From a virus, in IMG/VR virus record IMGVR_UViG_3300006919_000019, positions 1 to 37,435 of that record: a stretch of DNA of 37,435 bases, one strand, 5' to 3'. Made by a program: the position numbers and the translations under genes. Positions 1,583 to 37,435 of the stretch are shown here, one piece after another. A model generated the notes under the pieces. That model was not told the origin of the DNA, did no database searches, and was given only the letters and a program-made list of their open reading frames with translations. Every line of letters starts with the position of its first letter. Position 1 is the stretch's first letter.

Positions 1583-1605
1583 TTCAAAATAATTTTATAT
1601 ATTTG
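1575..1605 (+). promoter_or_regulatory. Host-type promoter of the sigma-like gene
   Basis: TATATTTG at 1598-1605 is a perfect match to the Bacteroidota -7 consensus TAnnTTTG. The expected -33 position, 19 to 20 bases upstream, holds only a weak TATTC. Transcription would begin near 1612 and give a leader of about 15 bases before the GTG at 1627. The sigma-like gene could thus be read by the unmodified host polymerase. Confidence 0.6.
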
Positions 1606-1626: not shown

Positions 1627-2097
1627 GTGTTAAAAAAACTATCTAAAAATCACGAAGAATGGTTAAGAATAGCAAACGGAATTTGTAAGGATAAAGAAAC
1701 CGCAAAAGATTTAGTACAAGATATGTATATTACAATGTATGAAACAGACAAAAAATATTCTGAAGTTAATAAATGGTATATTTATAGAGTTATGTTTAGT
1801 GCCTTCTTAAACAGCATTAAAAAGAAACGGATCAAAACAGTAAGTATAAATGATTATTTCAACATTATAAAAACAGATTCAGATTTAACACACCTGGAGC
1901 AATTACAATGTATAGATGATGCTCTAAATGAAATAGGATTAATAGATAAAAGATACTTAATAGAAACCCATACTAGAAGCCTAAGAAAGAACGCAAAGTA
2001 TCTTAACATACCAGTATCAACATTGCACTATCAAAAACACAAAGCAATAGAGAAACTTAACCGAACAGATATAGTAAAAAAATTTAGAAAATTATGA
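1627..2097 (+). CDS. Phage sigma-70-like (ECF-type) transcription factor
   Basis: This protein has 156 residues and a GTG start. Residues about 10-70 look like sigma region 2: WLRIANGIC, then AKDLVQDMYITMYE (26-39), then NKWYIYRVMFSAFLN followed by a basic KKKR. Residues about 100-144 look like region 4, with a helix-turn-helix around SLRKNAKYLNIPVSTLHYQK (118-137). The size and the two-part layout match small ECF-type factors. It should bind host core RNA polymerase and redirect it. I infer that the target is the CAAAA-N10-TTGTTATTATAGT motif found before four structural gene blocks. It is preceded by a host-type promoter and overlaps the next gene by ATGA. A non-sigma DNA-binding regulator is the main alternative. 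Confidence 0.75.
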   Translation: MLKKLSKNHEEWLRIANGICKDKETAKDLVQDMYITMYETDKKYSEVNKWYIYRVMFSAFLNSIKKKRIKTVSINDYFNIIKTDSDLTHLEQLQCIDDALNEIGLIDKRYLIETHTRSLRKNAKYLNIPVSTLHYQKHKAIEKLNRTDIVKKFRKL

Positions 2098-2246: not shown

Positions 2247-2678
2247 ATGAAAGAACCTAAAGATAAAAGAACACTAGAGTATAAAGAATGGAAGAAAAAC
2301 TTTGATAATGATAATTCTATTGGAGCAGGTGATATAGTGGAGAAGATAACCAATGCTACTGGTATTAAAAAAATAGTTGAAGCATTTACTCCAGAAGGCA
2401 AAGACTGTGGATGTGATGAACGTAAAAAGAAACTAAACAAAACCAGAATTAAAACAACTGCTCTAAGATGCTTAACCGAACAACAATATAACACATGGAA
2501 AGCATTTTTAAAAAGAGAACGTAGAAGCGAGGTAACAAACGAACAACAAGTTAATATAATAATTCCTATCTATGCTCATATATTTGCACTACAACATAAA
2601 GTATCATCTTGTGGATCATGTGTTAAAAAACTGATAGACGAAATTAACGTAGTATTTGATACTTACGAAACAAAATAG
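2247..2678 (+). CDS. Conserved-type cysteine-containing protein next to terminase
   Basis: This protein has 143 residues. It contains GAGDIVEKITNATGIKKIVE (27-46) followed by a Cys cluster, DCGCDERKKKLNK, and a second pair near the C-terminus, SSCGSCVKK. The two clusters could share one metal ion. I associate this arrangement with proteins next to terminase genes in Bacteroidota phages, where no function has been assigned as far as I know. Its stop codon lies within the conserved late-promoter-like motif (2671-2698), so it ends the pre-late block. Confidence 0.65.
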   Translation: MKEPKDKRTLEYKEWKKNFDNDNSIGAGDIVEKITNATGIKKIVEAFTPEGKDCGCDERKKKLNKTRIKTTALRCLTEQQYNTWKAFLKRERRSEVTNEQQVNIIIPIYAHIFALQHKVSSCGSCVKKLIDEINVVFDTYETK

Positions 2679-2698
2679 ATAAATATTGTTATTATAGT
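2671..2698 (+). promoter_or_regulatory. Late-promoter-like motif A (terminase block)
   Basis: CAAAA (2671-2675), ten bases, then TTGTTATTATAGT (2686-2698). It lies 36 bases before the ATG of the small terminase gene. It is identical in both halves to copies B and D and matches D at 25 of 28 positions. I infer a bipartite phage late promoter; see the finding on the motif. Confidence 0.6.
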
Positions 2699-2734
2699 GT
2701 AACATGTATTAAAATAATACAAAAATAATACAAA

Positions 2735-3040
2735 ATGCCTTTTGAAAAAGGACATAAAAAAGCAACTGGAAGACCTAAAGGAAGTGCTAATAAATCAAGT
2801 GCTATAATACGTGATGCCTTTGCTTCATTATTAGAAGATAACCTAGAACAGATAACAAAAGACTTTCAAACTTTAGACCCAGAAAAAAGAGTTAAGTTAT
2901 TTCTAGATATGAGTAAGTACATTATACCTACATTAAAAGCAACCGAATTAGATTTAGGAGATAATCTAATAGATACTTTAAAATATACGCCAGAAGAAAG
3001 AGCGAAAAGAATTAAGGATCTTTTAAGTAATGGGGATTGA
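2735..3040 (+). CDS. terS: Terminase small subunit
   Basis: This is a 101-residue protein that begins MPFEKGHKKATGRPKGSANK, a basic N-terminal signature of phage small terminase or DNA-packaging proteins. A helical middle (SAIIRDAFASLLEDN, then KRVKLFLDMSKYIIP) follows, and the acidic tail contains YTPEERAKRIKDLL. It should recognise phage DNA and load the large subunit. It overlaps the large-terminase gene by 11 bases, which supports the pairing. It is the first gene after late-promoter-like motif A. Confidence 0.85.
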   Translation: MPFEKGHKKATGRPKGSANKSSAIIRDAFASLLEDNLEQITKDFQTLDPEKRVKLFLDMSKYIIPTLKATELDLGDNLIDTLKYTPEERAKRIKDLLSNGD

Positions 3041-4493
3041 TGAATTAAAAGAGTTAGATTCACTTCTTTATAGTGATGAAATATATAAAGCAAGAAATAA
3101 CTTATTAGACTTTACAAAATCTACTTTGGATAGTTTTCAAGTGGAGAACTTTCATAAAAAATACTACGGTCTTTTAGATAAGTTTGCCAAAGGAGAAATA
3201 AAGAAATTAATTATTACAATGCCTCCACAACATGGTAAATCAGAGGGTTCTTCAAGGCGTTTACCTGCTTATATTTTAGGTATTAACCCAGATAAAAAAA
3301 TAGCAGTATCTTCATATAACACCACATTTGCATCAAAATTTAATAGAGATATACAACGAATTATTGATACTCCTAAATATTTTGATATATTCCCAAAAAC
3401 AACATTAAATTCTTCAAACGTTGTAACTGCTTCATCTAACTATCTTAGAAACTCATTAGAATTTGAAATAGTAGGGAAACAAGGCGGTTTAAAATCAGTA
3501 GGGCGTGGTGGTGCATTAACAGGCAACAGGGTTGATGTTATGATAATGGATGATTTATACAAAGATTACATGGAGGGAAACAGTCCTTTGATACGTGAGA
3601 ATGTTTGGGACTGGTACACATCAGTAGTTAGCACTAGACTACATAATAACAGCCAAGAATTAATTGTATTCACCAGATGGCATGAGGACGATTTAATAGG
3701 CCGTTTAGAATCAAATGGGAAGGTTAAGGAGTTAAAAGACATTAACAATATACCTAAACTAAAAAACGACGAATGGTTAAAGGTTAATTTTGAGGCAATA
3801 AAAGAGAGTGAAAAAACTCCAATTGACAACAGAAATATAGGTGATTCACTTTGGGAATCTATGCACTCTAAAGAAGGTTTAATAAGTAGTATGGAAATGG
3901 ATGTTGAGAAATTTAAGTGTTTATATCAAGGAAACCCACAATCTAAAGAGGGGTTATTATATAGTGATTTTAAGACGTACACAGATCTACCACAATTAAA
4001 ACAAATAAAAAACTACACAGATACAGCTGATACTGGTACTGATAAATTATGTTCTATTGTTTATGGTATACCATTATCTAGTTCAGATGATCACCTATAC
4101 GTTTTAGATGTATTGTACACAGATGAACCAATGGAGAAAACAGAACCTTTAACTATTGATTTACTAAACAAAAACAATGTTAATATATCCTTAGTTGAAT
4201 CTAACAATGGTGGTAGAGGGTTTGCAAGAATAGTACAAGCATCAACACGAACTAATGTAAAATGGTTTCATCAGTCAAGTAACAAAGAGGCTAGAATTTT
4301 TAGTAATAGTGCTTCTGTATCTAGTAAGATAGTATTTCCTAAAGATTGGTTTCTTAGGTGGACACCATTTTACAATGATGTTACTAAATATAAAAAACTA
4401 TTTAAGGCTAATAAATTTGATGATGCGCCAGACACACTTACCGGAATCATTGAAGAAGAAACAAAAGGCAGAGGGCAGTACGACATAAGATAA
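3030..4493 (+). CDS. terL: Terminase large subunit
   Basis: This is a 487-residue packaging motor with an ATPase and a nuclease. The Walker A-like loop is PPQHGKS (65-71), Walker B is VDVMIMDD (168-175), and FTRWHEDD (214-221) is the usual coupling region. The C-terminal RNase H-fold nuclease shows acidic residues at DTADTGTD (331-338), VLDV (358-361) and DDAPD (464-468). It cuts phage concatemers and drives DNA into the prohead. The length is normal for the family. It is translationally coupled to the small subunit. The gene that follows is a tail chaperone, not the portal, which is unusual. Confidence 0.95.
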   Translation: MGIDELKELDSLLYSDEIYKARNNLLDFTKSTLDSFQVENFHKKYYGLLDKFAKGEIKKLIITMPPQHGKSEGSSRRLPAYILGINPDKKIAVSSYNTTFASKFNRDIQRIIDTPKYFDIFPKTTLNSSNVVTASSNYLRNSLEFEIVGKQGGLKSVGRGGALTGNRVDVMIMDDLYKDYMEGNSPLIRENVWDWYTSVVSTRLHNNSQELIVFTRWHEDDLIGRLESNGKVKELKDINNIPKLKNDEWLKVNFEAIKESEKTPIDNRNIGDSLWESMHSKEGLISSMEMDVEKFKCLYQGNPQSKEGLLYSDFKTYTDLPQLKQIKNYTDTADTGTDKLCSIVYGIPLSSSDDHLYVLDVLYTDEPMEKTEPLTIDLLNKNNVNISLVESNNGGRGFARIVQASTRTNVKWFHQSSNKEARIFSNSASVSSKIVFPKDWFLRWTPFYNDVTKYKKLFKANKFDDAPDTLTGIIEEETKGRGQYDIR

Positions 4494-4497
4494 AAAA

Positions 4498-4525
4498 CAA
4501 AACACAAATAAATTGTTATTATAGT
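4498..4525 (+). promoter_or_regulatory. Late-promoter-like motif B (tail block)
   Basis: CAAAA (4498-4502), ten bases, TTGTTATTATAGT (4513-4525). The motif ends one base before the ATG at 4527. If it is a promoter, the message would be leaderless or nearly so. Confidence 0.6.
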
Positions 4526-4526
4526 A

Positions 4527-5174
4527 ATGAAAGTAAAGATTAAAATACCTGGTACACTAAAAGATATTAAACTATCACAATATCAAAAGTTTATTAACAG
4601 CGTTAAAGATAGTGAAGATGCTGAATTTATAAATAGGCAAATGGTTAGTTGCTTATGTGATATAGAACCAGAAACAGTTAAACAAATTACCAGGAGTTCA
4701 TTTAATGGCTTGGTTAATTCTTTGACTAAAATACTAAATGATAAACCATCTATACAAACGATCATAAAACACGAGGGTAAAGAATACGGTTTAATACCTT
4801 CAATGGAAGAAATGACAGTTGGAGAACAAGCAGATTTGGATTCTATGTATGGTGACTATTCAAAACGTCAAAAAGTAATGGCTATTTTATACAGACCTAT
4901 AACAGTAAAAAGTAAAGGCAATTATTTGATAGAAGATTACACAGGTAAAGAAGAACCTTTAGATTTAACACTAGATGTTGTAATGGGTGCTGATGTTTTT
5001 TTTTGCAACATACTGAAAGACTGCATGAATATTACGCTGAATTATATCAAGGGGGAGGAGGTTCAAGCGAAGCTATCTCAAACTTTGGCTCAAAATGGGG
5101 TTGGTATCAAAACATTTACAGCCTCGCTGGAGGAAACGTTTTTGAACTTGAAAGAGCAACTAAATTACCGTTAG
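4527..5174 (+). CDS. Tail assembly chaperone (G-like, zero-frame product)
   Basis: This 215-residue protein is the zero-frame product of a tail chaperone locus. The N-terminus MKVKIKIPGTLKDIKLSQYQ and the EEMTVGEQADLDS segment resemble chaperones of flavobacterial phages, which coat the tape measure during tail assembly. A run of nine T (4996-5004) falls in codons GTT TTT TTT TGC at residues 157-160. This allows a -1 slip into the frame that runs to 5248. The zero frame stays open for 56 more codons past the slip site, longer than in lambda gene G. Its position after terminase and far upstream of the tape measure fits. Confidence 0.75.
   Translation: MKVKIKIPGTLKDIKLSQYQKFINSVKDSEDAEFINRQMVSCLCDIEPETVKQITRSSFNGLVNSLTKILNDKPSIQTIIKHEGKEYGLIPSMEEMTVGEQADLDSMYGDYSKRQKVMAILYRPITVKSKGNYLIEDYTGKEEPLDLTLDVVMGADVFFCNILKDCMNITLNYIKGEEVQAKLSQTLAQNGVGIKTFTASLEETFLNLKEQLNYR
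4996..5004 (+). other. Programmed -1 frameshift site (slippery T run)
   Basis: Nine consecutive T include the heptamer T TTT TTT in the zero frame (4997-5003), a standard -1 slippery sequence. The -1 frame is open from 5003 to 5248 and encodes the conserved-looking T domain. I could not identify a downstream pseudoknot with confidence. Confidence 0.7.
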
Positions 5175-5248
5175 GTGAGGCAATGTTATACTTGTGTTTT
5201 GAAACAGATAAAAACAAATTAGAAGCTAAATTAATAAAACAAAAATAA
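5003..5248 (+). CDS. Tail assembly chaperone T domain, made by -1 frameshift (GT-like)
   Basis: This is the -1 frame extension of the gene at 4527. It lacks a sensible start: the only candidate is a TTG inside the slippery site, and the next ATG is near the end. A ribosome slipping on the T run would give 159 zero-frame residues plus about 81 from here, or about 240. The segment SKWGWYQNIYSLAGGNVFEL, followed by ATKLPLGEAMLYLCFE, resembles the second reading frame of tail chaperone loci in flavobacterial phages. The overlap with the zero frame is 172 bases, so both frames are coding. The stop overlaps the next ATG as TAATG. Confidence 0.7.
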   Translation: MQHTERLHEYYAELYQGGGGSSEAISNFGSKWGWYQNIYSLAGGNVFELERATKLPLGEAMLYLCFETDKNKLEAKLIKQK

Positions 5249-5331
5249 TGTACACGACAGATAACACATCAGGATATGACACAATAAGGTATGACTTTAT
5301 TTTTGAATACGATTTTAAACCTTTTCTATAA
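5248..5331 (+). CDS. Tiny coupled protein
   Basis: This 27-residue frame begins MYTTDNTSGYDTIRYDFIFE. It starts in a TAATG overlap with the frameshift product and ends in a TAATG overlap with the next gene, so it is probably translated. It is rich in Tyr, Asp and Phe and has no recognised family. The frameshift, coupling and short length make it easy to miss in automated calling. Confidence 0.55.
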   Translation: MYTTDNTSGYDTIRYDFIFEYDFKPFL

Positions 5332-5810
5332 TGAATACATATTACGAACTCATAAAACAATTAAAAACAATCTTTGAAGAAGGTGAAGTAGGTCTAAAAG
5401 CCTCTACTGTAACAATGGAAGAAGATTATAGAATTATTGATAACTATAAGAAAAATCTATTTCCTTTAGTACATATTGAGGTTTCAGATTCACCTTTTAT
5501 TGGTGTAGAAAATTTATCAGCACATAGATTTAATGTGATTATAAATGTATTAGACATACGAGATATTAACAAAGAAGAAGTTAATGATAAGTTTTGGAGC
5601 AACGACAATAAACAGGACAACGCAAATAAATGTTATGCTATTTTACGTGTAGCGCTTAACAAGATGGTTAAAGACACATTAAACACAGATATAACTATTG
5701 AAAACGCAAGTCCAGCAATACCAGTAATATACGCACATAAGAATTTATTAGATGGTTGGCAACAAACATGGACTATTGATGTGCCTGATAAATTAACGAC
5801 AGTATGTTAG
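5331..5810 (+). CDS. Tail terminator / tail completion-like protein
   Basis: This protein has 159 residues. The segment DYRIIDNYKKNLFPLVHIEV, the sheet-rich middle (HRFNVIINVLDI) and the C-terminal LLDGWQQTWTIDV resemble small tail-completion proteins that cap the tail tube or join it to the head. Its place between the tail chaperone and an HK97-gp10-like protein agrees. Its start is fixed by TAATG coupling. The family assignment is by pattern only, and a generic neck protein is the alternative. Confidence 0.55.
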   Translation: MNTYYELIKQLKTIFEEGEVGLKASTVTMEEDYRIIDNYKKNLFPLVHIEVSDSPFIGVENLSAHRFNVIINVLDIRDINKEEVNDKFWSNDNKQDNANKCYAILRVALNKMVKDTLNTDITIENASPAIPVIYAHKNLLDGWQQTWTIDVPDKLTTVC

Positions 5811-6364
5811 ATCGTGTTGAAGTAAAAGAAATATTAGATAAGTTTGGTAATTACTTAGTATCACAATCACGTGCTAATTTAACACGTGCAGGGCGTAGGC
5901 ATACAGACGCATTATATACTTCATTGGATTATGAAGCAAACGCATTTGAAAACTCTATACAATTTGATTTTGGAACTGATAAAGAAGAAACATCTAAATA
6001 TTTAGACTTTATAGACAAAGGTGTAAGAGGTGCAGGAGGTGTAAGAAAAACAACATCTACTTTTAACAAAAGAAATAATAAGGGTAAACTTTGGAAGATA
6101 AACGCTAAAGATTCACCATATAGATTTACAAATAAAATGCCACCATTAGGAGCGTTAAAGAATTGGGCGCAAGATAAAGGATTGAGTGCTTACGCAGTAC
6201 AAAGAGTAGTTTATCATCAAGGAATTAAACCAACATACTTTTATAGTAAACCATACGAAAAAGCATTTGAAACACTACCAGAAGAATTAGTAGAGGCTTA
6301 TGGTTTAGATTTAGAAAGATTTATGGAAATAACATTAATAAAGAATAAGGATGCCAACATATAG
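5804..6364 (+). CDS. HK97 gp10-like head-tail connector / neck protein
   Basis: This protein has 186 residues. After an N-terminal helix (VEVKEILDKFGNYLVSQSRA) come SLDYEANAFENSIQFDFGTD and YLDFIDKGVRGAGG (about 66-79). The YxDFIDKGVxG pattern is typical of HK97-gp10-like or neck proteins in this phage group. The C-terminal half has GALKNWAQDKGLS and YFYSKPYEKAF. The ATG at 5804 overlaps the previous stop. It probably acts at the head-tail junction. Confidence 0.6.
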   Translation: MLDRVEVKEILDKFGNYLVSQSRANLTRAGRRHTDALYTSLDYEANAFENSIQFDFGTDKEETSKYLDFIDKGVRGAGGVRKTTSTFNKRNNKGKLWKINAKDSPYRFTNKMPPLGALKNWAQDKGLSAYAVQRVVYHQGIKPTYFYSKPYEKAFETLPEELVEAYGLDLERFMEITLIKNKDANI

Positions 6365-7790
6365 CGAAATGGAGATAACATTTACTACGGATTTTGTAGT
6401 AGATGATACATTGAAAATAACAACTGATAATTTTGGTGAAGAATGGACATGGGTATTAACTAGAGGTGCATCTTATGAGGTTAGTTCTGCAATACTACCA
6501 GGAATAACAGGCACATCAACTGCAACACAATTTGAAACAGCTTTTGATTTAGATTTTCCTACTGGTTATGTAACTACACAAGTAGATAATGTTTTAACTA
6601 TACAATCAGAAACAGATGGTGAAGATTTTTTAGGCATAAAGGGAGGCGATGATAATACAGGCGAATTTACAGTAGTATTTACAAATGTGGTAACACCTCC
6701 AACACCAGCCACTATTGATTATGCTTTAATGCGTTCACCATATTATGTAAACATTCCTTTTAACTTTACAACAACAACATCAACTACATTAACATTATAT
6801 GTTTGGGATGGTGATTTAACAGTAGTTCCTGGTACTGCATCAAGAACACTAACTAAGATAAGACCTACGGTAGATTATGCAGAATTTAATATAGATTTAT
6901 CTAAGTTAATAAGAGAGTTTTTAAATCCAGTACCTAAAGTAATATTAACTTCATCTAGTCAAATAGTAGATGTTTTAGATGATGGTTTAAAATGGGCAAA
7001 ATATACAGCAAGTTATACTGATCCTTCTGAAATTATACCAGACATAGAAGGCACGCTATCAGCTATTGATGGTTATGGCTATATGCAAGAGGGCGTTAAT
7101 CCTGATGTACCAACATCTAAAGTATTAACTAATTGCGCTAATCGTAAAGTATCAAGGGATGGTTTTATATTGTTTCCTTATTTAAACGAGGGTACAATTA
7201 CGAGTATAGAAGTTGATAGTGAAACAGGCGAAATAAACGACACATTAACAATGACTACTTCAGATGAAAGTACTGATGCATTGCAATATATTAGTATAGA
7301 TGTTTCGACAGTTACAACAGATGAATACATAACAGTAACAACCAAACCAAATGATGATGCTTTTGTTTTTGAAATTATCGATGAATGTAAATTTTCTCCA
7401 GTTAGTGTTGTGTTTTTAAATAAATATGGTGCTTATGATGTTATCACAATGTTCAAGAAAAGAACAGATGAACTAAGTGTTAAGAGTGAGGATTTTAAAA
7501 ACAATTATATTTCTGGTGGTACTTACGACATAGCAAAACATCAGATTCAAAAACTAAATGTAATAGGCAATGATACTGTAAGTGTTAATAGTGGTTATAT
7601 TAATGAGGCTGAAAACACACTATATAAAGAATTGGTATTAAGTGAAAAGGTATTCTTTTATGAGAATGATTCATTTGTACCAGTAAATGTAGATACTAAA
7701 ACGTTTAAGCCACTAACTAGAACTAATGACAGATTAGTAAAGTATAATATTGATTTTAGTTATGCTTACAATACGATAAATAATATTTAA
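6351..7790 (+). CDS. Large structural tail protein
   Basis: This protein has 479 residues, is rich in Thr, Asp and Val, and is predicted to be all-beta with no cysteine clusters or membrane segments. The first 120 residues look like a separate beta domain (GEEWTWVLTRG to EFTVVFTNVV) followed by a TPPTPAT linker. The remainder includes VSVVFLNKYGAYDVITMFKK and a C-terminal strand pattern that I associate with tail proteins of flavobacterial phages. It overlaps its upstream neighbour by 14 bases, and its stop overlaps the next start as TAATG. A second ATG at 6369 is possible. The exact role (tail tip or sheath-like layer) is not visible. Confidence 0.55.
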   Translation: MPTYSEMEITFTTDFVVDDTLKITTDNFGEEWTWVLTRGASYEVSSAILPGITGTSTATQFETAFDLDFPTGYVTTQVDNVLTIQSETDGEDFLGIKGGDDNTGEFTVVFTNVVTPPTPATIDYALMRSPYYVNIPFNFTTTTSTTLTLYVWDGDLTVVPGTASRTLTKIRPTVDYAEFNIDLSKLIREFLNPVPKVILTSSSQIVDVLDDGLKWAKYTASYTDPSEIIPDIEGTLSAIDGYGYMQEGVNPDVPTSKVLTNCANRKVSRDGFILFPYLNEGTITSIEVDSETGEINDTLTMTTSDESTDALQYISIDVSTVTTDEYITVTTKPNDDAFVFEIIDECKFSPVSVVFLNKYGAYDVITMFKKRTDELSVKSEDFKNNYISGGTYDIAKHQIQKLNVIGNDTVSVNSGYINEAENTLYKELVLSEKVFFYENDSFVPVNVDTKTFKPLTRTNDRLVKYNIDFSYAYNTINNI

Positions 7791-10162
7791 TGGCGGTAGA
7801 TATTTTCTTAGAAGGGCAACGTTTAGACACGTTTGGCAAAGATGAAAACATAGAGGTTACTTCAGCGGTTCAAGATGTAAAAGATATATCTAAAATTCGT
7901 GGTGACTTTTCGCAAAGCTTCACTTTACCTGCCAGTAAGAGAAATAACGGTTTATTTGCTCATTATTATAATTCTGATATTGATGGTGGTTTTTTTGATG
8001 CAAGAGTAAGAAAAACGTGTACTATTGATGTAGATACTTTAGATTTTAAGCGTGGTAAACTACAATTAGTAAACGTTGTTATAAAAGAAAACCAACCAGC
8101 ATTTTATAAGGTTGTTTTTTATGGTAATACAATCAAGGTAAAAGATTTAATAGGAGAAGATAAATTAAAAGATTTAGATTGGTTAGATAATTTCAATCAC
8201 GATTATACAGCAGCGAATGTTAAAATTGGATTAACTACTGGCTTAGATTTTACAGTTGATTCTGTTAGTTATACTAAAGCTGTTTGCTATCCTTTAGTAT
8301 CTTATAAAAGGCAGTTCTATTACAATAGTGATGTAAGTGATACAACAGCAACGGACACGCTTGTAAATATAGCGTATGATGCAGGAAGAACAGATGGTAT
8401 AGGTTTTGGCGAATTAAGACCAGCGATACAAGTTAAGTTAATTATACAGGCTATTACAGAAAAGTATGGTTTAACATTTAGTGGTACTTTCTTTGATGAA
8501 ACTAAGTTTTCAGAATTGTATATGAATGTAAACAATACTAAAGATGATTTATCAAATGGTTTAAAAGTTTATGAAGAACTAAGTGGCACTCAACCTTTTA
8601 TAGATGCTACAAGGGATAGATATATATATTTTACAACAGTAACACCAAAAGCAGGTTTTGGAAGTGTAGATTATAAAATAAGATTAACAATAAATGGAAC
8701 GGTTGGTTATGAAAGCAGTGTGTGGTTGCAAGGCACAAAAACTAAAAACACATCAGAAATACAATTTTCTGAAAATTATGATGTAAAGGCTGAAGTAATA
8801 ACAGAAGAAGATTTTGAATTTGATGCTACAACTAGACTTGAATACAGATATAACACTATACCAAGGGTTACGGTGGTGGTTTTTTCAAATAGTCAAACAA
8901 ATCAAGTAATAGACTTAGATACAATTATAACAACATCGTTTAAGGATATAAAAGTATATGATTTTTTAACATCTATTTTTAGAATGTTTAACCTGGTTGT
9001 AGTTCCTGATGGTGACAATCTATATGTACAAGATTTACAGAGTTGGTATGCTGAAGGTCAAATATACGATGTTACAAAATACATAGACACTAAACAAGTT
9101 ACGGTTAGTAGAGGCAAGATTTTAAACCAAATCAATTTTAAGTTTAAAGATAGTAAGCAAATATTAGCAGATTTTTATGCACAAGAAAACGGTGTTTATT
9201 ATGGCAACTTAGAACAAAAATTATATGATGCAGATGGTGAGCTGCTAAGCGGTGACAAACTAGATATAGAAGTAATATTTGAGCAACCAATATTTGAAAG
9301 GTTAAACGATACTATTGATAATAGCCAAATAGAATTATTGTATGGTTTAATGTTAAATGATAGTTCTAGTCCTTTTGTTGGAGAACCTTTTTTAATGTAT
9401 TTACCTAGTGTTTCAGTATCAGGAAACACATTAGGTTTTAAAGGTGCTACTTATGAAGAATTAAGTGGCAATGTATTAATGCCTTCTCATAGTATAGAGT
9501 ATGACACAGATAGTTTTAATATCAATTTTAATGCAGAAATAAACGAGTTCACAAGTCAAGTATTTACAGATACGATTTATAATTGGGGTTTTAGTGATTA
9601 CATAGGTGATATTTTCAGTATTAAAAGAAGAATTTATGACTATGAGGCGATATTACCTAATTGGTTATTAAACAAACTAAAGTTAAATGATAGGCTAGTA
9701 ATAAACGATAAACGTTATTTAATAAACACAGTAAAGAGTAATATAGTAAATAGAAAAGATAAGTTAGAGTTAATCAATGATATTTATAGCGCACCATTAG
9801 CATCAGATTCATTAAACAGTAGTTTGTGGACACCAACAAGTAGAACATTAACAGGTGATGCAGTAAGTAGTGATTCAAGATATATAGGATTAGCAACAGC
9901 AGTTTTATCATTAGTAGATACTGGTTATGGAACATCATGGGTAACAATAACAGGAAGTGTAACAGGTGTTATAAATACAATAACATTTGATTTAGCAACG
10001 AACACTACAGGAGCATTAAGAACAGCACAAATAAAAGCAACGGATGGTGTAAACGATCCTAAATTTACAATAACACAAAACGCAATACCACAGGGAGCAT
10101 TAAATTTTGCTGATCCTGCTAATAGTGGATTAATAAATACAATTTTAATAACAAAATCTTAA
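7790..10162 (+). CDS. Baseplate / tail-tip protein with C-terminal BACON-like domain
   Basis: This protein has 790 residues. It starts MAVDIFLEGQRLDTFGKDEN and continues with DISKIRGDFSQSFTLPASKR, a pattern I know from large tail proteins of Bacteroidota phages that likely form the distal tail. The middle (about 380-680) is a repetitive beta-rich region. The last roughly 100 residues have the BACON-type pattern, with YGTSWVTITG, LATNTTGALRTAQIKATDG and KFTITQNA. BACON domains are common in Bacteroidota glycan-binding proteins, so I infer a surface-contact function for this end. It starts by TAATG coupling. Confidence 0.65.
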   Translation: MAVDIFLEGQRLDTFGKDENIEVTSAVQDVKDISKIRGDFSQSFTLPASKRNNGLFAHYYNSDIDGGFFDARVRKTCTIDVDTLDFKRGKLQLVNVVIKENQPAFYKVVFYGNTIKVKDLIGEDKLKDLDWLDNFNHDYTAANVKIGLTTGLDFTVDSVSYTKAVCYPLVSYKRQFYYNSDVSDTTATDTLVNIAYDAGRTDGIGFGELRPAIQVKLIIQAITEKYGLTFSGTFFDETKFSELYMNVNNTKDDLSNGLKVYEELSGTQPFIDATRDRYIYFTTVTPKAGFGSVDYKIRLTINGTVGYESSVWLQGTKTKNTSEIQFSENYDVKAEVITEEDFEFDATTRLEYRYNTIPRVTVVVFSNSQTNQVIDLDTIITTSFKDIKVYDFLTSIFRMFNLVVVPDGDNLYVQDLQSWYAEGQIYDVTKYIDTKQVTVSRGKILNQINFKFKDSKQILADFYAQENGVYYGNLEQKLYDADGELLSGDKLDIEVIFEQPIFERLNDTIDNSQIELLYGLMLNDSSSPFVGEPFLMYLPSVSVSGNTLGFKGATYEELSGNVLMPSHSIEYDTDSFNINFNAEINEFTSQVFTDTIYNWGFSDYIGDIFSIKRRIYDYEAILPNWLLNKLKLNDRLVINDKRYLINTVKSNIVNRKDKLELINDIYSAPLASDSLNSSLWTPTSRTLTGDAVSSDSRYIGLATAVLSLVDTGYGTSWVTITGSVTGVINTITFDLATNTTGALRTAQIKATDGVNDPKFTITQNAIPQGALNFADPANSGLINTILITKS

Positions 10163-10166
10163 TAAA

Positions 10167-10994
10167 ATGAGCATAAAAGTAAAAGATGCCGATGGCACAG
10201 ATAGATATTATGAAACAAGAGAAACAGGTAACAGTTCAGAACCTTTTCAATCAGTAGTTCCATCTTATAAAATATCAGCAGCAGAAAACGAAATTTTTAA
10301 AACTTACGAAGATAATGTAAGTGTTTGGCAAAAGGGTAAAAGACTTTTGAAATTTGGAGGTAATAAAGATTTAGACACAGGTGTTTCTGAAACTATATGG
10401 AACACAGGAAGTAATGAAACTTATAAAACAGCAAATGATATTGATATAGTAGTTAGTACTTCTGGGGGTGATACACAAGATATTGTTATAGAAGGTCACA
10501 CAATATCCGGAACTGATTTAACTTTTGTAATTCAAACAGCAACATTAAATGGAACAACTAACGTTCCATTAACAACACCTTTAGCTAGAGTTAATAGACT
10601 TTATAATGATAGTGGAACTGATTTTGTAGGTGATATTACAGTAGAAGATAATGGTACAAGTACTCATTTAACAGTATTTGGCACAGCAGGAGAAAACCAA
10701 TCCAGAAAATGTGTTACTGCATTATCAAGTCAAGATTATTATATTATAACGCAACTTAGTGGTGGTTTAGTTGGTACTATTTCTGCTAATGTAGTTTTTA
10801 GTTTTCAAACTAGAAAATTAGGAAAGGTATGGAGAACACAAAGATCATTTAGTTCAATAGGTTATACTGAAATTCCATTAGAGCCACCTATAATAGTTCC
10901 ACCAAATCACGATATAAGAATGATAGCAACATCAGACACACCAAATACAGAAGCAGTAGCTGAATTTGCAGGATATTTAGCAATAATAACATAG
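10167..10994 (+). CDS. Structural protein, beta-rich, unknown role
   Basis: This 275-residue protein is almost entirely beta-strand-like. Notable segments are DIDIVVSTSGGDTQDIVIEG, QDYYIITQLSGGLVGTISAN and a C-terminal IIVPPNHDIRMIATSDTPN, which resembles phage receptor-binding or decoration proteins ending in a jelly-roll-like fold. It lies between the tail-tip protein and the tape measure, which suggests a tail-tip or decoration role. I cannot name a family. Confidence 0.55.
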   Translation: MSIKVKDADGTDRYYETRETGNSSEPFQSVVPSYKISAAENEIFKTYEDNVSVWQKGKRLLKFGGNKDLDTGVSETIWNTGSNETYKTANDIDIVVSTSGGDTQDIVIEGHTISGTDLTFVIQTATLNGTTNVPLTTPLARVNRLYNDSGTDFVGDITVEDNGTSTHLTVFGTAGENQSRKCVTALSSQDYYIITQLSGGLVGTISANVVFSFQTRKLGKVWRTQRSFSSIGYTEIPLEPPIIVPPNHDIRMIATSDTPNTEAVAEFAGYLAIIT

Positions 10995-10995
10995 T

Positions 10996-11139
10996 ATGTT
11001 TGATTTAATAATAAAGACATTAGAGATAGGAAAATTAAGAGGTGTATCAAAAGAAATTGATATAGCTAAGGGCGTTAATAAACTACAAACCACATGGAAA
11101 GGTAGTTGGAATCAATATAAAAGAAAGAAAGCATGGTAG
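10996..11139 (+). CDS. Small basic protein before tape measure
   Basis: This 47-residue frame begins MFDLIIKTLEIGKLRGVSKE and ends with a Trp/Lys-rich tail containing TTWKGSWNQYKRKKAW. Its stop overlaps the tape-measure ATG by seven bases. The position and coupling support translation. A small tail-assembly factor is possible; no family is recognised. Confidence 0.6.
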   Translation: MFDLIIKTLEIGKLRGVSKEIDIAKGVNKLQTTWKGSWNQYKRKKAW

Positions 11140-12812
11140 AAACAACTATTAGAATTAAGGTCATAGATGGCGAGGTTCAACTAGGTGCAGAAGAAATAAA
11201 GAAGTTAGGTCGTGCTATTGATGATGTAGAAAAGAAAGCTAAAAAGGTTGGTGGTAAGGTAAAGGAATCAGGAAGCGACATTGAAAAAGGTTTTGGTAAA
11301 GCAGAAGAATCTGTTAGAAATCTAAATGATGGACTTGAAGGCGGTGTTAAAGAAGCTGTTAAATTAACTAAAGCAGTGAAAGTTGGTGGTGCTGCAATGC
11401 GTTCTGCTCTTATTGCAACAGGAATAGGTGCATTTGTAGTTGCTTTAGGGTTTATTGTTTCTAATTGGGATGCTATTGGCGAGGCGTTAGGATTTATAAA
11501 TAAAGACTTAGAACATCAAAAAAGTTTATTAAAAGATAATAATGATTTATTAGATATTCAGCTTGAAAGATTATCTCTACAAAAAGACATACTAAAACTT
11601 CAAGGTGAAAGCACAGAAGATTTAGTAAAACAAGAAAAATTACTTTTAGAAGAAAAGAGAAAAAACATTCTTGCTACAATAGAGAATTTGAAATTAACCA
11701 TTGCAACAGAAGAAGCAAAAGCAAAGGAACTTAAATGGTGGCAACAAATATTCGGAATACCAAAATCATCAGGAAAAATAGATGAAGAAGAAAGGCAAAT
11801 ATTAGCAGATAAAAACGAGGAGTTAGAAAAACAATATAATTTACTTCTTAAAATTGAAAAGCAAGTATTAACGCCAGAAAAAGAGACCAAAGAGAAAAAA
11901 GAGAAAATACCTAAAGAAGAAAAAAATAGAAGTGCTGATATATTACGTGAAGCAGAATTATCTTTATTAGGCGAAAGACAACGTGAAATAAGAGAACGTG
12001 AAGAACGTTTCCAGAATGATTTAAAAGAATTAAAGAAAGCAGGAATAAAAGACCTAACAGCAGTTGAATTAGAATACAGACAAGACTTACTAGCAATAGA
12101 TGAACAATATAGGCCATCTTTAGAAAGTGGTGGTATTGCTGATCCATACAACGAACAAAAAGAAAAAGACGCTTTAAGATTAGAGGCATTAAGAGAAGGC
12201 ACAGAAGAATTTGCAATAGCACAGAATGAACAAATAGATTTAGAGGTTCAAGGTTTAATAAAAAGTGCTGAAATACAAAACAGAAAAACAGAAGACGAAA
12301 AAGCGAATGCAGATGCAAGGGTAAGAATAGCCGAGGCTGAATTTCAGGCTAAACAAATGTTATTAGATGGTATTAGTGGTTCTTTAGATGCAGTTAGTGA
12401 ATTAGTAGGAAGACAAACAGGAGCAGGAAAAGCATTAGCAGTTGCATCAGCTTTAATAGACACTTACGCTTCAATAGCAGGACAATTAAGAGCATTTGCT
12501 GGTGTACCAGTTCCAGGTTATGCAATAGCACAAGCAGTAGCAACAGGGTTGGCAGGTTTTGCAGCGGTTAAAAACATATTAAAAGTAAAAGTACCTTATG
12601 ATAAGGGAGGTGGTTCTGGTTCATTTGCTGGAGGTGGTGGAGCAGGAGCAACAGCAGCACCATCATTTAATGTAGTTGGTACAAGTGGCGTAAATCAATT
12701 AGCACAAACATTAAACCAAGAACAGCAACCAATACAAGCTTTTGTTGTAGGGGGCGATGTTACTAGCCAACAAGAATTTGAAAGAAACGTAGTAGAAACA
12801 AGTAGTATATAA
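11133..12812 (+). CDS. Tail tape measure protein
   Basis: This protein has 559 residues. A hydrophobic segment at about 90-110 (ALIATGIGAFVVALGFIVSN) is followed by long heptad-rich coiled coil from about 125 to 410. After this come GKALAVASALIDTYASIAGQ and a Gly/Ala-rich C-terminus with GFAAVKNILKVKVPYDKGGG. This arrangement is typical of tape measures that set tail length and may form the DNA ejection channel. At about 560 residues it is short, which predicts a short flexible tail (inference). It ends six bases before the convergent minus-strand gene. Confidence 0.8.
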   Translation: MVETTIRIKVIDGEVQLGAEEIKKLGRAIDDVEKKAKKVGGKVKESGSDIEKGFGKAEESVRNLNDGLEGGVKEAVKLTKAVKVGGAAMRSALIATGIGAFVVALGFIVSNWDAIGEALGFINKDLEHQKSLLKDNNDLLDIQLERLSLQKDILKLQGESTEDLVKQEKLLLEEKRKNILATIENLKLTIATEEAKAKELKWWQQIFGIPKSSGKIDEEERQILADKNEELEKQYNLLLKIEKQVLTPEKETKEKKEKIPKEEKNRSADILREAELSLLGERQREIREREERFQNDLKELKKAGIKDLTAVELEYRQDLLAIDEQYRPSLESGGIADPYNEQKEKDALRLEALREGTEEFAIAQNEQIDLEVQGLIKSAEIQNRKTEDEKANADARVRIAEAEFQAKQMLLDGISGSLDAVSELVGRQTGAGKALAVASALIDTYASIAGQLRAFAGVPVPGYAIAQAVATGLAGFAAVKNILKVKVPYDKGGGSGSFAGGGGAGATAAPSFNVVGTSGVNQLAQTLNQEQQPIQAFVVGGDVTSQQEFERNVVETSSI

Positions 12813-12817
12813 ACTAT

Positions 12818-13264
12818 TTATGTAAAATCATAATTAAAACAAATAGAAGAATCAAACAATGCTTTAAATATTTGTATTGGTTCTTCTATGCTTAAACATA
12901 AATTCATAGAATCATCTAATCTTTCATCTTCTAGCGAAATTATTTTTTCATCATTAAAATAATGTTGTCTTTTTACAATTATTTTTGGTCTAGGACTTAT
13001 AAGTGTAGGTGGCTTATCTGCCTCATGCAAACCAAAACAAATAACACCTTTTCTGTCTTCCCAAGTAAAATCATCATCCATAACACTTTTATCTTGTTCT
13101 ATCTTTTTTAGTATAACTTCATCTGTTTTATGTATGTATCTATGATCTAAATTTACCATAGTAGATATTCTGTGTTTATTTGTTATTTCATATTTCATGG
13201 TTTTACAATTTAGTATGTATTTTATATAACCATTATCTATTAATATCTTTTCAAATCTTGTCAT
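12818..13264 (-). CDS. Minus-strand moron, unknown function
   Basis: This is the only convincing gene on the minus strand, a 148-residue soluble protein starting MTRFEKILIDNGYIKYILNC. It contains NLDHRYIHKTDEVILKKIEQ and FTWEDRKGVICFGLHEADKP, a pattern I associate with an uncharacterised protein of flavobacterial phages. I prefer the ATG at 13264 because it is preceded by an A-rich stretch, while the upstream in-frame ATG at 13303 sits in a hairpin arm. Being inverted between tape measure and protease, it is a moron that may be expressed independently, for example to alter host or superinfecting-phage behaviour. That role is inference. Confidence 0.65.
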   Translation of the reverse strand: MTRFEKILIDNGYIKYILNCKTMKYEITNKHRISTMVNLDHRYIHKTDEVILKKIEQDKSVMDDDFTWEDRKGVICFGLHEADKPPTLISPRPKIIVKRQHYFNDEKIISLEDERLDDSMNLCLSIEEPIQIFKALFDSSICFNYDFT

Positions 13265-13284
13265 TTTGTTACTTATTTTTTTAA

Positions 13285-13320
13285 TAAAAAGAAAAAGAGC
13301 CATAAAACTAATTATGACCC
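13285..13320 (-). terminator. Terminator-like hairpin in moron leader (minus strand)
   Basis: On the minus strand, gggtcataa (13320-13312) pairs with ttatggctc (13305-13297) over nine positions with two G-U pairs and a 6-base loop, followed by ttttt-c-ttttt (13296-13285 side). This is a good T-tailed hairpin just before the preferred start at 13264. No minus-strand gene lies upstream of it, so it may attenuate the moron transcript. Confidence 0.5.
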
Positions 13321-13406
13321 TTTAACACCCTAACATAATTCTATTAATCAATTATTTATTCCAACTAAATCCAAGTGCAATGTACAACACATTATTCAAT
13401 TAACAA

Positions 13407-13423
13407 AATAGATTTTATCTATT
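13407..13423. repeat. Operator-like inverted repeat
   Basis: aatagat-ttt-atctatt is a perfect 7-bp inverted repeat with a 3-bp spacer. It lies in the 200-bp space between the divergent moron and protease genes, just before the tandem late-promoter-like motif. It could be a repressor or activator site; nothing else supports this. Confidence 0.35.
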
Positions 13424-13462
13424 AAAAAGTTGAACACTATAATAAAAAGTTGTTATTATAAT
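13423..13462 (+). promoter_or_regulatory. Late-promoter-like motif C, tandem copy (protease-capsid block)
   Basis: TTGTTATTATAAT (13450-13462) differs from the other copies only at the penultimate base. The upstream CAAAA is degenerate (CACTA at 13435). A second, weaker copy lies just upstream: taaaaagttg occurs at both 13423 and 13444, followed by aacactataat and ttattataat respectively. The motif ends two bases before the ATG at 13465. Confidence 0.5.
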
Positions 13463-13464
13463 GT

Positions 13465-14406
13465 ATGAAAGTATATGAGGCAATTTACAAAGAAGGTGAA
13501 AACGAAGGAGTTTACGCACTTTCAGTAGTAGAAAATCCAGCAATGGAAGACATGTGGATAGCACTTGCTGAACACCCACAAAAAATAGAATTAGCACAAG
13601 TAAACGAAGAAAAGCGTTTATTACTTGGTGCTGCTCTTATTCCCAACAAAAGAATTTATAGAAATATAGATGGTAATGAGTTTGAAATGTTTTTCACAGC
13701 AGAAACAATTGAAAAACTTGCTCATTCATTTATGAGAAACCAAAACAACAATAATTCTAGTTTAGAACATGAACTAAAATTAGAGGGAATGAGTGTTGTT
13801 GAGGCGTGGACAGTTGAAAACCCTGAAACAGATAAAAGTGCTAATTATGGTAAAACATATCCTAAAGGCACATGGGTAACGATGATGAAAGTTGAAAACG
13901 AAGATATGTGGAGTAAAGTGAAGAATGGAGAAATTAAAGGTTTTTCTATCGATGCTTTATTAGGATTGGAACAAGTACAATTAAAAACAAATATAAACAA
14001 CATGAATGAAGAAGTAAAAAAATCAATAGTGCAAGAAGTACTAGATGGTGTTAAGGCTCTTTTTTCTGCTAAAGAAGAAACTCCAGAAGTTGAGAACATA
14101 GAAGTTCAACCAGAAGCGGTTACTGAAGTAGTAGAAGAATTTGACAAAGAAGCATTTATGGCTGAAGTTATTGAAACTGTTAAAACTGAATTTTCAGCAC
14201 AAGCAGATGAAAGGCTAGAGGCTGTTAAATTAGAATTATCTACTAAAATAGATGAATTAACAAAAGAGAACGAAACTCTTAAAATCGAATTAAACAAACA
14301 ACCAGAAGTTGAAAGTGTTAAACTTAACCAACATGAAGAAGCTAAACCTAGAGTAATGGTAGGTAGAACTATTCATGAAAGAGTTATGAACGCAATAAAC
14401 GGATAA
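13465..14406 (+). CDS. Prohead protease (XkdF-type) fused to scaffold
   Basis: This protein has 313 residues. Residues about 50-165 match the XkdF-type phage serine protease pattern: LLLGAALIPNKRIYRN, SSLEHELK (His102), VVEAWTVENP, KGTWVTMMKV and IKGFSIDA (Ser161). His102 and Ser161 are candidates for the catalytic pair. Residues about 185-300 are acidic and helical (EVVEEFDKEAFMAEVIETVK, then a coiled coil), as in a scaffold domain that is removed after assembly. It lies directly before the major capsid gene, the normal arrangement. It follows motif C. Confidence 0.85.
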   Translation: MKVYEAIYKEGENEGVYALSVVENPAMEDMWIALAEHPQKIELAQVNEEKRLLLGAALIPNKRIYRNIDGNEFEMFFTAETIEKLAHSFMRNQNNNNSSLEHELKLEGMSVVEAWTVENPETDKSANYGKTYPKGTWVTMMKVENEDMWSKVKNGEIKGFSIDALLGLEQVQLKTNINNMNEEVKKSIVQEVLDGVKALFSAKEETPEVENIEVQPEAVTEVVEEFDKEAFMAEVIETVKTEFSAQADERLEAVKLELSTKIDELTKENETLKIELNKQPEVESVKLNQHEEAKPRVMVGRTIHERVMNAING

Positions 14407-14419
14407 ATCAAAAATTAAA

Positions 14420-15352
14420 ATGGAAAACAAAAAAATTGAATTAGCCACGACTGAAACTATTTCTAGCAACTATAGCGGTGCTGATAGCTCTAGATTTATC
14501 TCGGCAGCGTTATTAGCACCAACTACAATCACAAATGGTGGTGTGGAAGTTATCGAAAATGTACCTTACAAATGGAATGTACCAAATGTAAATTTATCAG
14601 GAATTGTACAAGATGCAACTTGTGACTTTACTCCAGGTGGTACTTTAACAGTAGCGGATCGTGTTCTTACAACTGAAAAGTTTGAGGTAAACATTAAATT
14701 ATGTAAAAAGACTTACAGACCAGTTTGGCAGTCTATGTACAAAAGTGGCCGTTTCACAGGTTCTTTTGAATCTTATTTAGCTGGATTAGCAGCAGCAAAC
14801 GTTGCAGCATCAAGAGAAACGGTAATATGGCAAGGAACTAACGGAACAGGTGGAGAGTTTGAAGGTATTGAAGGTCTTTTGACAGTAGATGCAGCTTTAC
14901 CAGCAGCAAATGAAGTAACAGGAACAACTTTAACAGCAGGAAATATTATTGCTGAATTAGGGAAGGTTAAAGCAGCAGCTCCAAACGCTATTTATAACAT
15001 GCCTGGTTTTGCTATTAGAGTATCAACAGCAGCAATGAAATTTTATATTACTGCACAAGCAGCATTAGGTGCTTACGATGCTTTTCACGAAAGAACAGCA
15101 ACAGCTAACTTTGAAGGAATACCGTTAATTGAGTGTTCTGGATTATCTGATGATGTTATGATTGCAACAGGTTCAAACGTACTTTGGTATGGTATTGAAG
15201 ATTTAGCATTGAGTGGAAACGTAAGATTGTTAGACCAATCAATGAATGATGGTTCTGATAATGTACATGTTGTTATGGAATGGGGAGATGGCGTCCAGTA
15301 CGGAAATGTGAGCGATATAATTACGTATGGCATCGTTAATGCAGCCAACTAA
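14420..15352 (+). CDS. Major capsid protein (HK97 fold)
   Basis: This protein has 310 residues. Its position directly after the protease/scaffold gene and its sequence features support an HK97-type capsid subunit: an N-terminal arm, an acidic beta-rich domain around TLTVADRVLTTEKFEVNIKL, an E-loop-like region, a long helix (SYLAGLAAANVAASRETVIW) and a C-terminal domain with NVHVVMEWGDGVQYGNVS. The last strand region is typical of capsid proteins of this phage group. A strong terminator follows the gene 24 bases downstream. Confidence 0.8.
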   Translation: MENKKIELATTETISSNYSGADSSRFISAALLAPTTITNGGVEVIENVPYKWNVPNVNLSGIVQDATCDFTPGGTLTVADRVLTTEKFEVNIKLCKKTYRPVWQSMYKSGRFTGSFESYLAGLAAANVAASRETVIWQGTNGTGGEFEGIEGLLTVDAALPAANEVTGTTLTAGNIIAELGKVKAAAPNAIYNMPGFAIRVSTAAMKFYITAQAALGAYDAFHERTATANFEGIPLIECSGLSDDVMIATGSNVLWYGIEDLALSGNVRLLDQSMNDGSDNVHVVMEWGDGVQYGNVSDIITYGIVNAAN

Positions 15353-15375
15353 GAATAATTAATTAACTAATAAAT

Positions 15376-15413
15376 AAGGGTAGTCTAGTGATATGCTATT
15401 CTACCCTTTTTTT
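15376..15413 (+). terminator. Terminator after major capsid gene
   Basis: aagggtag (15376-15383) pairs with ctaccctt (15401-15408) as a perfect 8-bp stem with a 17-base loop, followed by a run of T to 15413. It would end or attenuate transcripts of the protease-capsid unit. Confidence 0.8.
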
Positions 15414-15432
15414 ATAAAAAACAAATAATAAT

Positions 15433-15963
15433 ATGGCATGTGTATTAACAACAGGTAGAGCCGAACCTTGCTTAGATGCAGTAGGTGGTTTAAGTACTGT
15501 TTACTTTTTTGATAGAATAGCTGATGCTTTTGTAATTGTGGGCGGTGAGGCTACAAGTATGAACGTGGCTTTAGTGTCCGCATTTCAGTACGATCTAAAG
15601 AGTGATAACAACAACTTAGAAGAATCAAGTGTGACATCTAAAAATGATGGCACAACAGTAGTAAATCAAACTTTAACTTTTTCATTAAAGAAACAAGATA
15701 AAGATACTGCAAATGAAATTAAATTATTAGCAGCAGCACAACCTGGTTGTGTTGTAAAAGATAGAATGGGAAATTATAAAATCGTTGGTTTAGAAGATGG
15801 TGTTGTAGTTTCTGGAACAGGTTTATCAGGTGGTGCTAAAGGAGAATTTAACGGTTATAATTTAACTGCTATTGGTGAAGAAACAAGTTTTGCACCAACA
15901 TTAGATTCAGCAACAGTAACAGCATTTTTAGCAATAGTAAGTGCTACACAAATTTCAGTATAA
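15433..15963 (+). CDS. Tail-tube-like structural protein, paralogue 1
   Basis: This protein has 176 residues. It starts MACVLTTGRAEPCLDAVGGL and is clearly paralogous to the gene at 19107: both share LTTGRxEPCLDxVGG, an NQTLTFSLKKQ or DQTLKFTLTKQ strand, an NYKIVGL or KYRIGGL strand, and GGAKGEFNGYNLTAI or GGNKADLNGYQITI. I associate this family with structural proteins of Bacteroidota phages and infer a tail-tube or head-decoration role. It stands alone between two terminators, so its level can be set separately. Confidence 0.55.
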   Translation: MACVLTTGRAEPCLDAVGGLSTVYFFDRIADAFVIVGGEATSMNVALVSAFQYDLKSDNNNLEESSVTSKNDGTTVVNQTLTFSLKKQDKDTANEIKLLAAAQPGCVVKDRMGNYKIVGLEDGVVVSGTGLSGGAKGEFNGYNLTAIGEETSFAPTLDSATVTAFLAIVSATQISV

Positions 15964-15985
15964 TTAACCTACTTTAGTGTAAATT

Positions 15986-16018
15986 AAGGCTAATATTTAA
16001 TTATATTAGTCTTTTTTT
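15986..16018 (+). terminator. Terminator between tube-like gene and portal block
   Basis: ggctaatat (15988-15996) pairs with atattagtc (16003-16011) over nine positions with one G-U pair, extended by flanking A-T pairs, with a 6-base loop and seven T (16012-16018). Four bases after it, motif D begins. Confidence 0.8.
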
Positions 16019-16021
16019 GTA

Positions 16022-16049
16022 CAAAATAGGAAAATGTTGTTATTATAGT
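16022..16049 (+). promoter_or_regulatory. Late-promoter-like motif D (portal block)
   Basis: CAAAA (16022-16026), ten bases, TTGTTATTATAGT (16037-16049), directly abutting the ATG at 16050. It sits just after a terminator, which strongly suggests that a new transcript starts here. Confidence 0.65.
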
Positions 16050-16346
16050 ATGATAGTCATTGATTCTGGAAACACAACACATAGTATTTATATTATACCA
16101 AGATATTACAATATAGATAACGCACATACATTATCAATAAAAGATGATGCAACTACAATAAGTGTTACGCCTTCAGTTACTAGAACTTTGGCTAATGGTT
16201 ACATTAAATATGATTTTGATTTAACAACTGCTGAAGGTAAAGGATATGATTTTACAATTTCAGACAATACAACTACAAATGTGATATATAGAGGGCAATT
16301 GTTCGCAACTGCACAAGTTTCACAAAATTACAAAATACATGGATAA
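16050..16346 (+). CDS. Small structural protein before portal
   Basis: This 98-residue protein begins MIVIDSGNTTHSIYIIPRYY and is beta-rich, ending VSQNYKIHG. Its stop overlaps the portal start by eight bases. I prefer the ATG at 16050 over the in-frame TTG at 16017, because the latter would make the terminator T-run and motif D part of the coding sequence and add an unlikely Cys/Tyr-rich leader. It is probably a minor virion or assembly protein; no family name can be given. Confidence 0.6.
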   Translation: MIVIDSGNTTHSIYIIPRYYNIDNAHTLSIKDDATTISVTPSVTRTLANGYIKYDFDLTTAEGKGYDFTISDNTTTNVIYRGQLFATAQVSQNYKIHG

Positions 16347-37257: not shown

Positions 37258-37350
37258 ATGAAATTAGCACCAGAAGAAAAAGCAAACAAGTATATTAGAC
37301 GAACTGAATTAAGCTATATTGTACATAACGGACGAGTGTATGAGCAGTAG
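37258..37350 (+). CDS. Tiny protein spanning the left edge of the terminal repeat
   Basis: This 30-residue frame begins MKLAPEEKANKYIRRTELSY and ends VHNGRVYEQ. Its 3' part lies in the terminal repeat, so only the last 38 bases recur at 1-38. The cassette-end element (37322-37352) overlaps its 3' end, and its stop is inside the element. On a circular genome the gene is intact. No family is recognised. Confidence 0.45.
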   Translation: MKLAPEEKANKYIRRTELSYIVHNGRVYEQ

Positions 37351-37435
37351 CCTTGCACGAACTTTGAATATATGAACAGAACTTAAATATTAACAACTGC
37401 AATAGTTTAAAACGCCTAACGGCTATTGCTTATAC
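37313..37435. repeat. Direct terminal repeat, right copy
   Basis: Identical to 1-123. It begins inside the gene at 37258-37350 and is cut in the middle of an inverted repeat that is complete at 87-135. Confidence 0.95.

Follow-up and report, generated by a model that had tools for sequence, protein, structure and literature searches.

The IMG/VR virus record IMGVR_UViG_3300006919_000019, analysed here over a stretch of 37,435 bases (the window), is a complete-looking phage genome in which a bipartite DNA element precedes four gene blocks, while a gene just upstream of the terminase encodes a protein of the sigma factor family. The exact 123-base direct terminal repeat (1-123 = 37313-37435) marks the contig as a genome that is either complete or circularly permuted. 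The blocks specify packaging, tail, protease/capsid and portal functions (Table 1), which were assigned from PHROGs (large terminase subunit, E=2.7e-86; portal, E=4.3e-126), and the protease and probable capsid of the third block are also backed by synteny with Nonlabens phage P12024S. We call these blocks late from the functions of their genes alone.

The element, CAAAA-N10-TTGTTATTATAGT, is found where the original prediction placed it, with exact copies at 2671-2698, 4498-4525 and 16022-16049 and a copy with three mismatches at 13435-13462. At up to three mismatches the window holds five matches, against a mean of 0.44 in shuffled sequences, and none of 100 shuffles reached five. In a de novo test, a 13-mer in three exact copies with a fixed upstream 5-mer occurred once in the window and in none of 200 dinucleotide shuffles. 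The motif is best written as ACAAAA-N11-TGTTATTATAGT. The core of the four-site alignment, ACAnnA-N11-TGTTATTATA followed by GT or AT, matches the genome exactly four times and only in plus-strand orientation, where shuffles give a mean of 0.02; all four sites precede late blocks, and the early region is without any.

As predicted, three copies end 0-2 bases before an ATG. The copies are also intergenic, apart from the first, whose CAAAA half overlaps the end of the open reading frame (ORF) 2247-2678. The second degenerate copy reported beside 13435 exists as well, but in inverted orientation, making a near-palindrome with 15-nt arms at 13434-13464; the other copies are directional, bipartite and non-palindromic. 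The weak copy within this near-palindrome faces the minus-strand ORF 12818-13303 and might serve as a divergent promoter or else as an operator. The terminator proposed before 16022 looks terminator-like by eye, with an AT-rich hairpin and a T run, but was not called by the scanner.

Table 1. Coordinates of the candidate late promoters, the gene blocks that follow them and the sigma factor gene in the window
Feature	Position	Strand	Details
Late promoter 1 (candidate)	2670..2698	+	ACAAAA 2670-2675, N11, TGTTATTATAGT 2687-2698; ATG 2735, leader about 36 nt
Late promoter 2 (candidate)	4497..4525	+	ACAAAA 4497-4502, N11, TGTTATTATAGT 4514-4525; 1 base to ATG 4527
Late promoter 3 (candidate)	13434..13462	+	ACACTA 13434-13439, N11, TGTTATTATAAT 13451-13462; 2 bases to ATG 13465
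Late promoter 4 (candidate)	16021..16049	+	ACAAAA 16021-16026, N11, TGTTATTATAGT 16038-16049; 0 bases to ATG 16050
Late block 1	2735..4493	+	Probable small terminase 2735; large terminase 3030
Late block 2	4527..12812	+	Tail genes, including tape-measure-like 11133
Late block 3	13465..15963	+	Head maturation protease 13465, probable capsid 14420, 15433
Late block 4, start	16050..18531	+	16050 (98 aa), portal 16339
ECF-type sigma factor	1627..2097	+	156 aa, GTG start, regions 2 and 4; Pfam, profile, AlphaFold2
Host-type -7 box	1598..1605	+	TATATTTG (TAnnTTTG), upstream of the sigma gene; consensus from PMC6847099

The phage sigma factor

The protein encoded at 1627-2097 had been described as sigma-70-like, and this is borne out by matches to Pfam Sigma70_r2 (26.2 bits, cutoff 24) and to the PHROG RNA polymerase sigma factor (E=8e-5). 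A profile of its family, built from 70 members, matches structures of extracytoplasmic function (ECF) sigma factors over nearly the full length (5uxx, 1.8e-7; SigW, 9.6e-7), with the matches extending to position 157-158 of 161; T4 gp55 was a low-strength match in the sigma profile search. Sigma70_r2 is detected at E<=0.01 in 49 of the 70 members. As Pfam Sigma70_r4 is found in only two of them, region 4 of the family is divergent at the level of sequence profiles.

The AlphaFold2 model of the protein (pLDDT, its predicted confidence, of 90) contains helices at 105-145, and the best folds for it are two-domain ECF sigma factors. It matches the ECF sigma factors of transcription initiation complexes in the PDB with low whole-chain TM-scores, which we take to reflect a free hinge between the two modelled domains: taken singly, one of them can be fitted to the SigR region-2 fragment at 1.9 A. 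The protein shows the marks of ECF (group 4) sigma factors, namely region 2 homology, a C-terminal region 4 helix-turn-helix and the lack of regions 1.1 and 3. With one region suited to a -10 (region 2) and another suited to a -35 (region 4), it matches what a bipartite motif would call for. Of the host-type promoter claimed for the sigma gene itself, the -7 box is present, but there is no -33 TTG at 15-22 nt. In one relative (record G015, locus L074) the sigma homologue at 17728-18168 carries one in-frame TAG, which may be a sequencing error, a pseudogene or a recoded stop.

The element in related phages

A motif search in relatives, which had been suggested as a check of the original prediction, revealed lineage-specific versions of the element before the same late blocks in relatives that encode the sigma factor. 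In the phage collection, annotated relatives of the sigma factor occur only in the cultured Nonlabens phages P12024S and P12024L (Inhavirus), whose sigma, protease and portal proteins are 25%, 48% and 39% identical to those of the window. Their sigma gene, for which the deposited annotation names only the region-2 domain, also lies just upstream of the terminase. Their version of the motif is ACAAA-N12/13-CGTTAATATAgt; ACAAA-N12/13-CGTTAA ends 5-6 nt before six annotated gene starts, and a weaker related copy stands upstream of the protease. No motif precedes their own orthologue of gene 4527, where the genes abut; their motif sites are located at other blocks. Both these phages and the window combine a sigma factor with a motif before late blocks, which in the Nonlabens phages has CGTTAA instead of the TGTTAT of the window, and the two candidate sigma/site pairs would involve TGTTATTATA in the window and CGTTAATATA in P12024S.

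Scans of IMG/VR yielded at least 376 relatives of the sigma factor and at least 590 of gene 4527, and the element together with a sigma gene is shared by the window, a marine phage of flavobacteria, and about a hundred related virus contigs. The versions in these contigs are mostly ACAAAA or AAAAC, a spacer and CGTTATATAnT, usually 0-2 bases from the ATG. Among the 137 loci with a readable start of the gene-4527 orthologue, most have a version of the element against the ATG (examples are CGTTATATAnT, TGTTATATTAAT, CGATATATAT and GTATTATATAAGT, preceded by ACAAAA or AAAAC), and versions likewise stand against the start of the protease and of the first gene of the portal block. The ATG adjoining the motif is very probably the true start of gene 4527 and unlikely to be misannotated, because four divergent homologues all keep Met1. 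One subclade has an element that reads TACAAT-N10/11-TTATTATTA about 12-15 nt before the ATG and is followed by an A-rich leader; read by eye, it is apparently the same promoter, shifted and with a short leader. The arrangement of this subclade, TTTAATACAAT-N10..-TTATTATTA, was noted upstream of the gene-4527 orthologue at loci L230, L243, L250, L253, L254, L256, L260, L268, L280 and L281.

The position against the start codon is found mainly at block starts. In the IMG/VR relatives, gene-4527 orthologues have the bipartite element directly against the ATG in 37 of 105 cases, proteases in 15 of 39 and first genes of the portal block in 9 of 14. Operon-internal capsid genes never have it there (0 of 30), orthologues of gene 5331 do so in 2 of 103 cases and other ORFs in 16 of 1349, and several of these 16 are clearly further late blocks. 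Single promoters used as seeds within the same locus (at most one mismatch) gave 18 additional matches, of which 8 adjoin the opening ATG of an ORF, while for five-fold shuffled seeds it was none of 36. A scan of viral contigs with the motif only, in which no protein was used, returned at least 120 sites; among the matches listed, 8 of 14 abut an ATG in contigs bearing homologues and 0 of 106 elsewhere, the eight coming from roughly three lineages and therefore not being independent.

Moreover, the copies co-vary by genome. When the 14 nt immediately preceding gene 4527 were compared with those preceding the protease in 27 phages, sites from one genome agreed more closely (10.67 of 14) than sites from different genomes (8.53; permutation p=5e-5), whereas the controls were null for the spacer and the far-upstream region (p=0.40 and 0.74) and for operon-internal genes (p=0.33 and 0.84). 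The statistic ignores shared ancestry, which would act on the control regions too.

The sigma factor accompanies the element. It was found in 46 of the 48 loci for which 7 kb or more of upstream sequence was available. Of the two loci without it, one belongs to a 30 kb record that encodes a sigma factor at another position, and the second lies in a 21.8 kb fragment. It was also present in all ten of the relative records of at least 30 kb that were searched, the 30 kb record just named among them, and ten shorter fragments were without it. In the genome search, the gene-4527 family appeared in one bacterial contig only, a Winogradskyella metagenome-assembled genome (L290), which hints at flavobacterial hosts and at a clade that is mostly lytic; prophages added no data beyond this.

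Probable late promoters and the alternatives

On this comparative evidence we consider it highly probable that the four copies are late promoters which the phage ECF-type sigma factor would recognise on the host core RNA polymerase, as the original prediction had proposed. The host sigma factor, which reads TAnnTTTG, would make the sigma mRNA early, and the phage factor would then direct the host core polymerase to the terminase, tail, protease-capsid and portal blocks. Region 4 would contact the ACAAAA half as the -35, and region 2 would melt the TGTTA/CGTTA half as the -10. The motif differs from the host consensus, as had been stated, and resembles an ECF promoter, with an A/C core in the -35 and a CGT-type -10. 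It may well be specific to this sigma factor.

Relative to the A of the ATG, the CGT/TGT core of the -10 occupies -12 to -10, and the ACA of the -35 half is found at about -32 to -30. These distances are the ones to be expected of an ECF promoter that starts at or beside this A. The mapped sigma promoters of phages 7-11 and phiEco32 start 6-9 bp past the -10 element (PMC8948821), and by this analogy the start in most copies would be the A itself or a base no more than about two positions away. Most late messages would then be leaderless or nearly so. Of the options left open by the original prediction, the leaderless one is therefore favoured by the geometry. A broader reading, in which late promoters and start codons have become joined throughout this widespread clade and the phage ECF sigma factor makes mRNAs that, as a rule, begin every virion block without a leader, strikes us as only somewhat better than an even bet.

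Several observations weigh against the promoter reading. The -35 to -10 spacing of 11-14 is shorter than the 16-17 usual for ECF promoters. About a third of the gene-4527 orthologues are without an abutting core, and one subclade is apparently shifted and leadered. No relative without the sigma factor was found, all ten records of at least 30 kb having it, so a loss contrast is not possible. When motif distance was compared with sigma distance, corrected for the distance of the gene-4527 protein, the partial r was 0.14 and that of a control offset 0.11; this partial Mantel result is weak and not specific to the -10 half, and we count none of it as evidence. Finally, a position weight matrix pooled from 86 orthologous promoters of the family did not place the sites of held-out genomes, of the window or of P12024S at the top, being too degenerate because the motif drifts between lineages, and per-genome tests were used for this reason.

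A host ECF sigma factor could read the motif instead, the phage sigma factor having another job. Flavobacteria have several ECF sigma factors, and the CGT -10 box is present in host ECF promoters of Flavobacterium psychrophilum, in one promoter class, motif SM6 (PMC9723704). SM6 shares this box with the phage motif but serves a host regulon that is probably controlled by an anti-sigma factor (PMC9723704). Each phage lineage has its own version of the motif, however, and the copies in one genome change together, a pattern that a reader encoded by the phage would produce; the phage sigma gene is also kept in every near-complete relative. Host ECF factors are usually held by anti-sigma factors and would hence be an unreliable driver of late lytic genes. 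We regard host control as improbable.

Slightly less probable still is a signal in the RNA, ribosome-recruiting or Kozak-like, that would act on translation at the start codon and not as a promoter. The motif does abut the ATG, and Bacteroidota do without the Shine-Dalgarno sequence and have an A-rich context at -3 and -6 (PMC6847099). However, the first copy in the window lies about 36 nt from its ATG and the subclade copy 12-15 nt upstream. The distance to the ATG thus varies while the bipartite layout is kept, which is better explained by DNA read by a sigma factor. Operon-internal genes such as the capsid genes are equally translated and have no motif, a -35-like half with a fixed spacer would be purposeless in a translation signal, and the co-variation of the copies by genome also argues against one.

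An operator for a phage repressor or activator, to which the near-palindromic protease-block copy might point, is very unlikely: the directional form of the remaining copies, their single orientation and their fixed distance from gene starts all speak against it, and no plus-strand TAHHTTTG box that could serve as the regulated promoter accompanies any of the four sites. Repeats arising by chance, as the AT-rich composition might allow, have a negligible probability as the explanation, since the tripled 13-mers seen in 63 of 200 dinucleotide shuffles appear only when the bipartite form is not required, and the conserved positions across many relatives refute this reading.

Other features of the window, known systems and significance

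The Rfam search gave no match anywhere in the window, and a scan of the window for sigma70-type promoters showed no excess over shuffles. An inverted pair, GCCTAAC...GTTAGGC, lies partly at the edge of the terminal repeat (about 101-135). The portal protein (16339-18531) ends in a C-terminal domain of about 110 aa that recurs, at 36-49% identity, in DarB-like antirestriction proteins and PLxRFG proteins from phages to which the window is unrelated. In the early region, phosphoadenosine phosphosulfate reductase-like and ParB-like proteins are encoded at 30737-31945 and 29592-30734, respectively.

Phage-encoded sigma factors having their own late promoters are already known. T4 gp55 is a small phage sigma factor for late genes, as the factor of the window would be, but T4 late promoters consist of a -10 only and need gp33 and gp45, whereas the window adds a -35 half and a helix-turn-helix region 4. 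The nearest characterised system, very close in logic, is Salmonella phage 7-11, whose late sigma factor SaPh711_gp47 has a region-4 homologue and whose late promoter GTAAtg-16-aCTA is bipartite and precedes structural genes (PMC8948821). As in the window, a low-copy bipartite motif stands before the late blocks, and in the window it is likewise distinct from the host promoters. The two differ in promoter sequence, spacing, host phylum and clade, and the accessible part of that publication does not describe a leaderless layout. The phiEco32 factor gp36 is also a phage sigma with middle and late promoters and a low-copy conserved motif, tAATGTAtA, but it is without region 4 homology and its promoters are single-element (PMC8948821, PMC4331800). 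No earlier description of phage ECF sigma factors with late promoters in Bacteroidota was found in the open-licence literature. New are the clade and host phylum, the motif family of its own and the near-systematic adjacency to the start codon.

These data provide a testable transcription programme for a large and almost uncultured group of marine phages, with P12024S on Nonlabens as a cultured relative. The many lineage-specific sigma/motif pairs form a natural data set on the co-evolution of ECF sigma factors and their promoters, and small orthogonal pairs of this kind could be useful for Bacteroidota genetics. In the host phylum leaderless messages are a minority, accounting for 5.5% of measured mRNAs in F. 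psychrophilum (PMC9723704), and 87% of leaders in F. johnsoniae are longer than 10 nt (PMC6847099). If the leaderless layout is true, the translation of such messages would be favoured late in infection. The layout also leads one to ask how ribosomes of flavobacteria, in which Shine-Dalgarno pairing plays no part, start without a leader.

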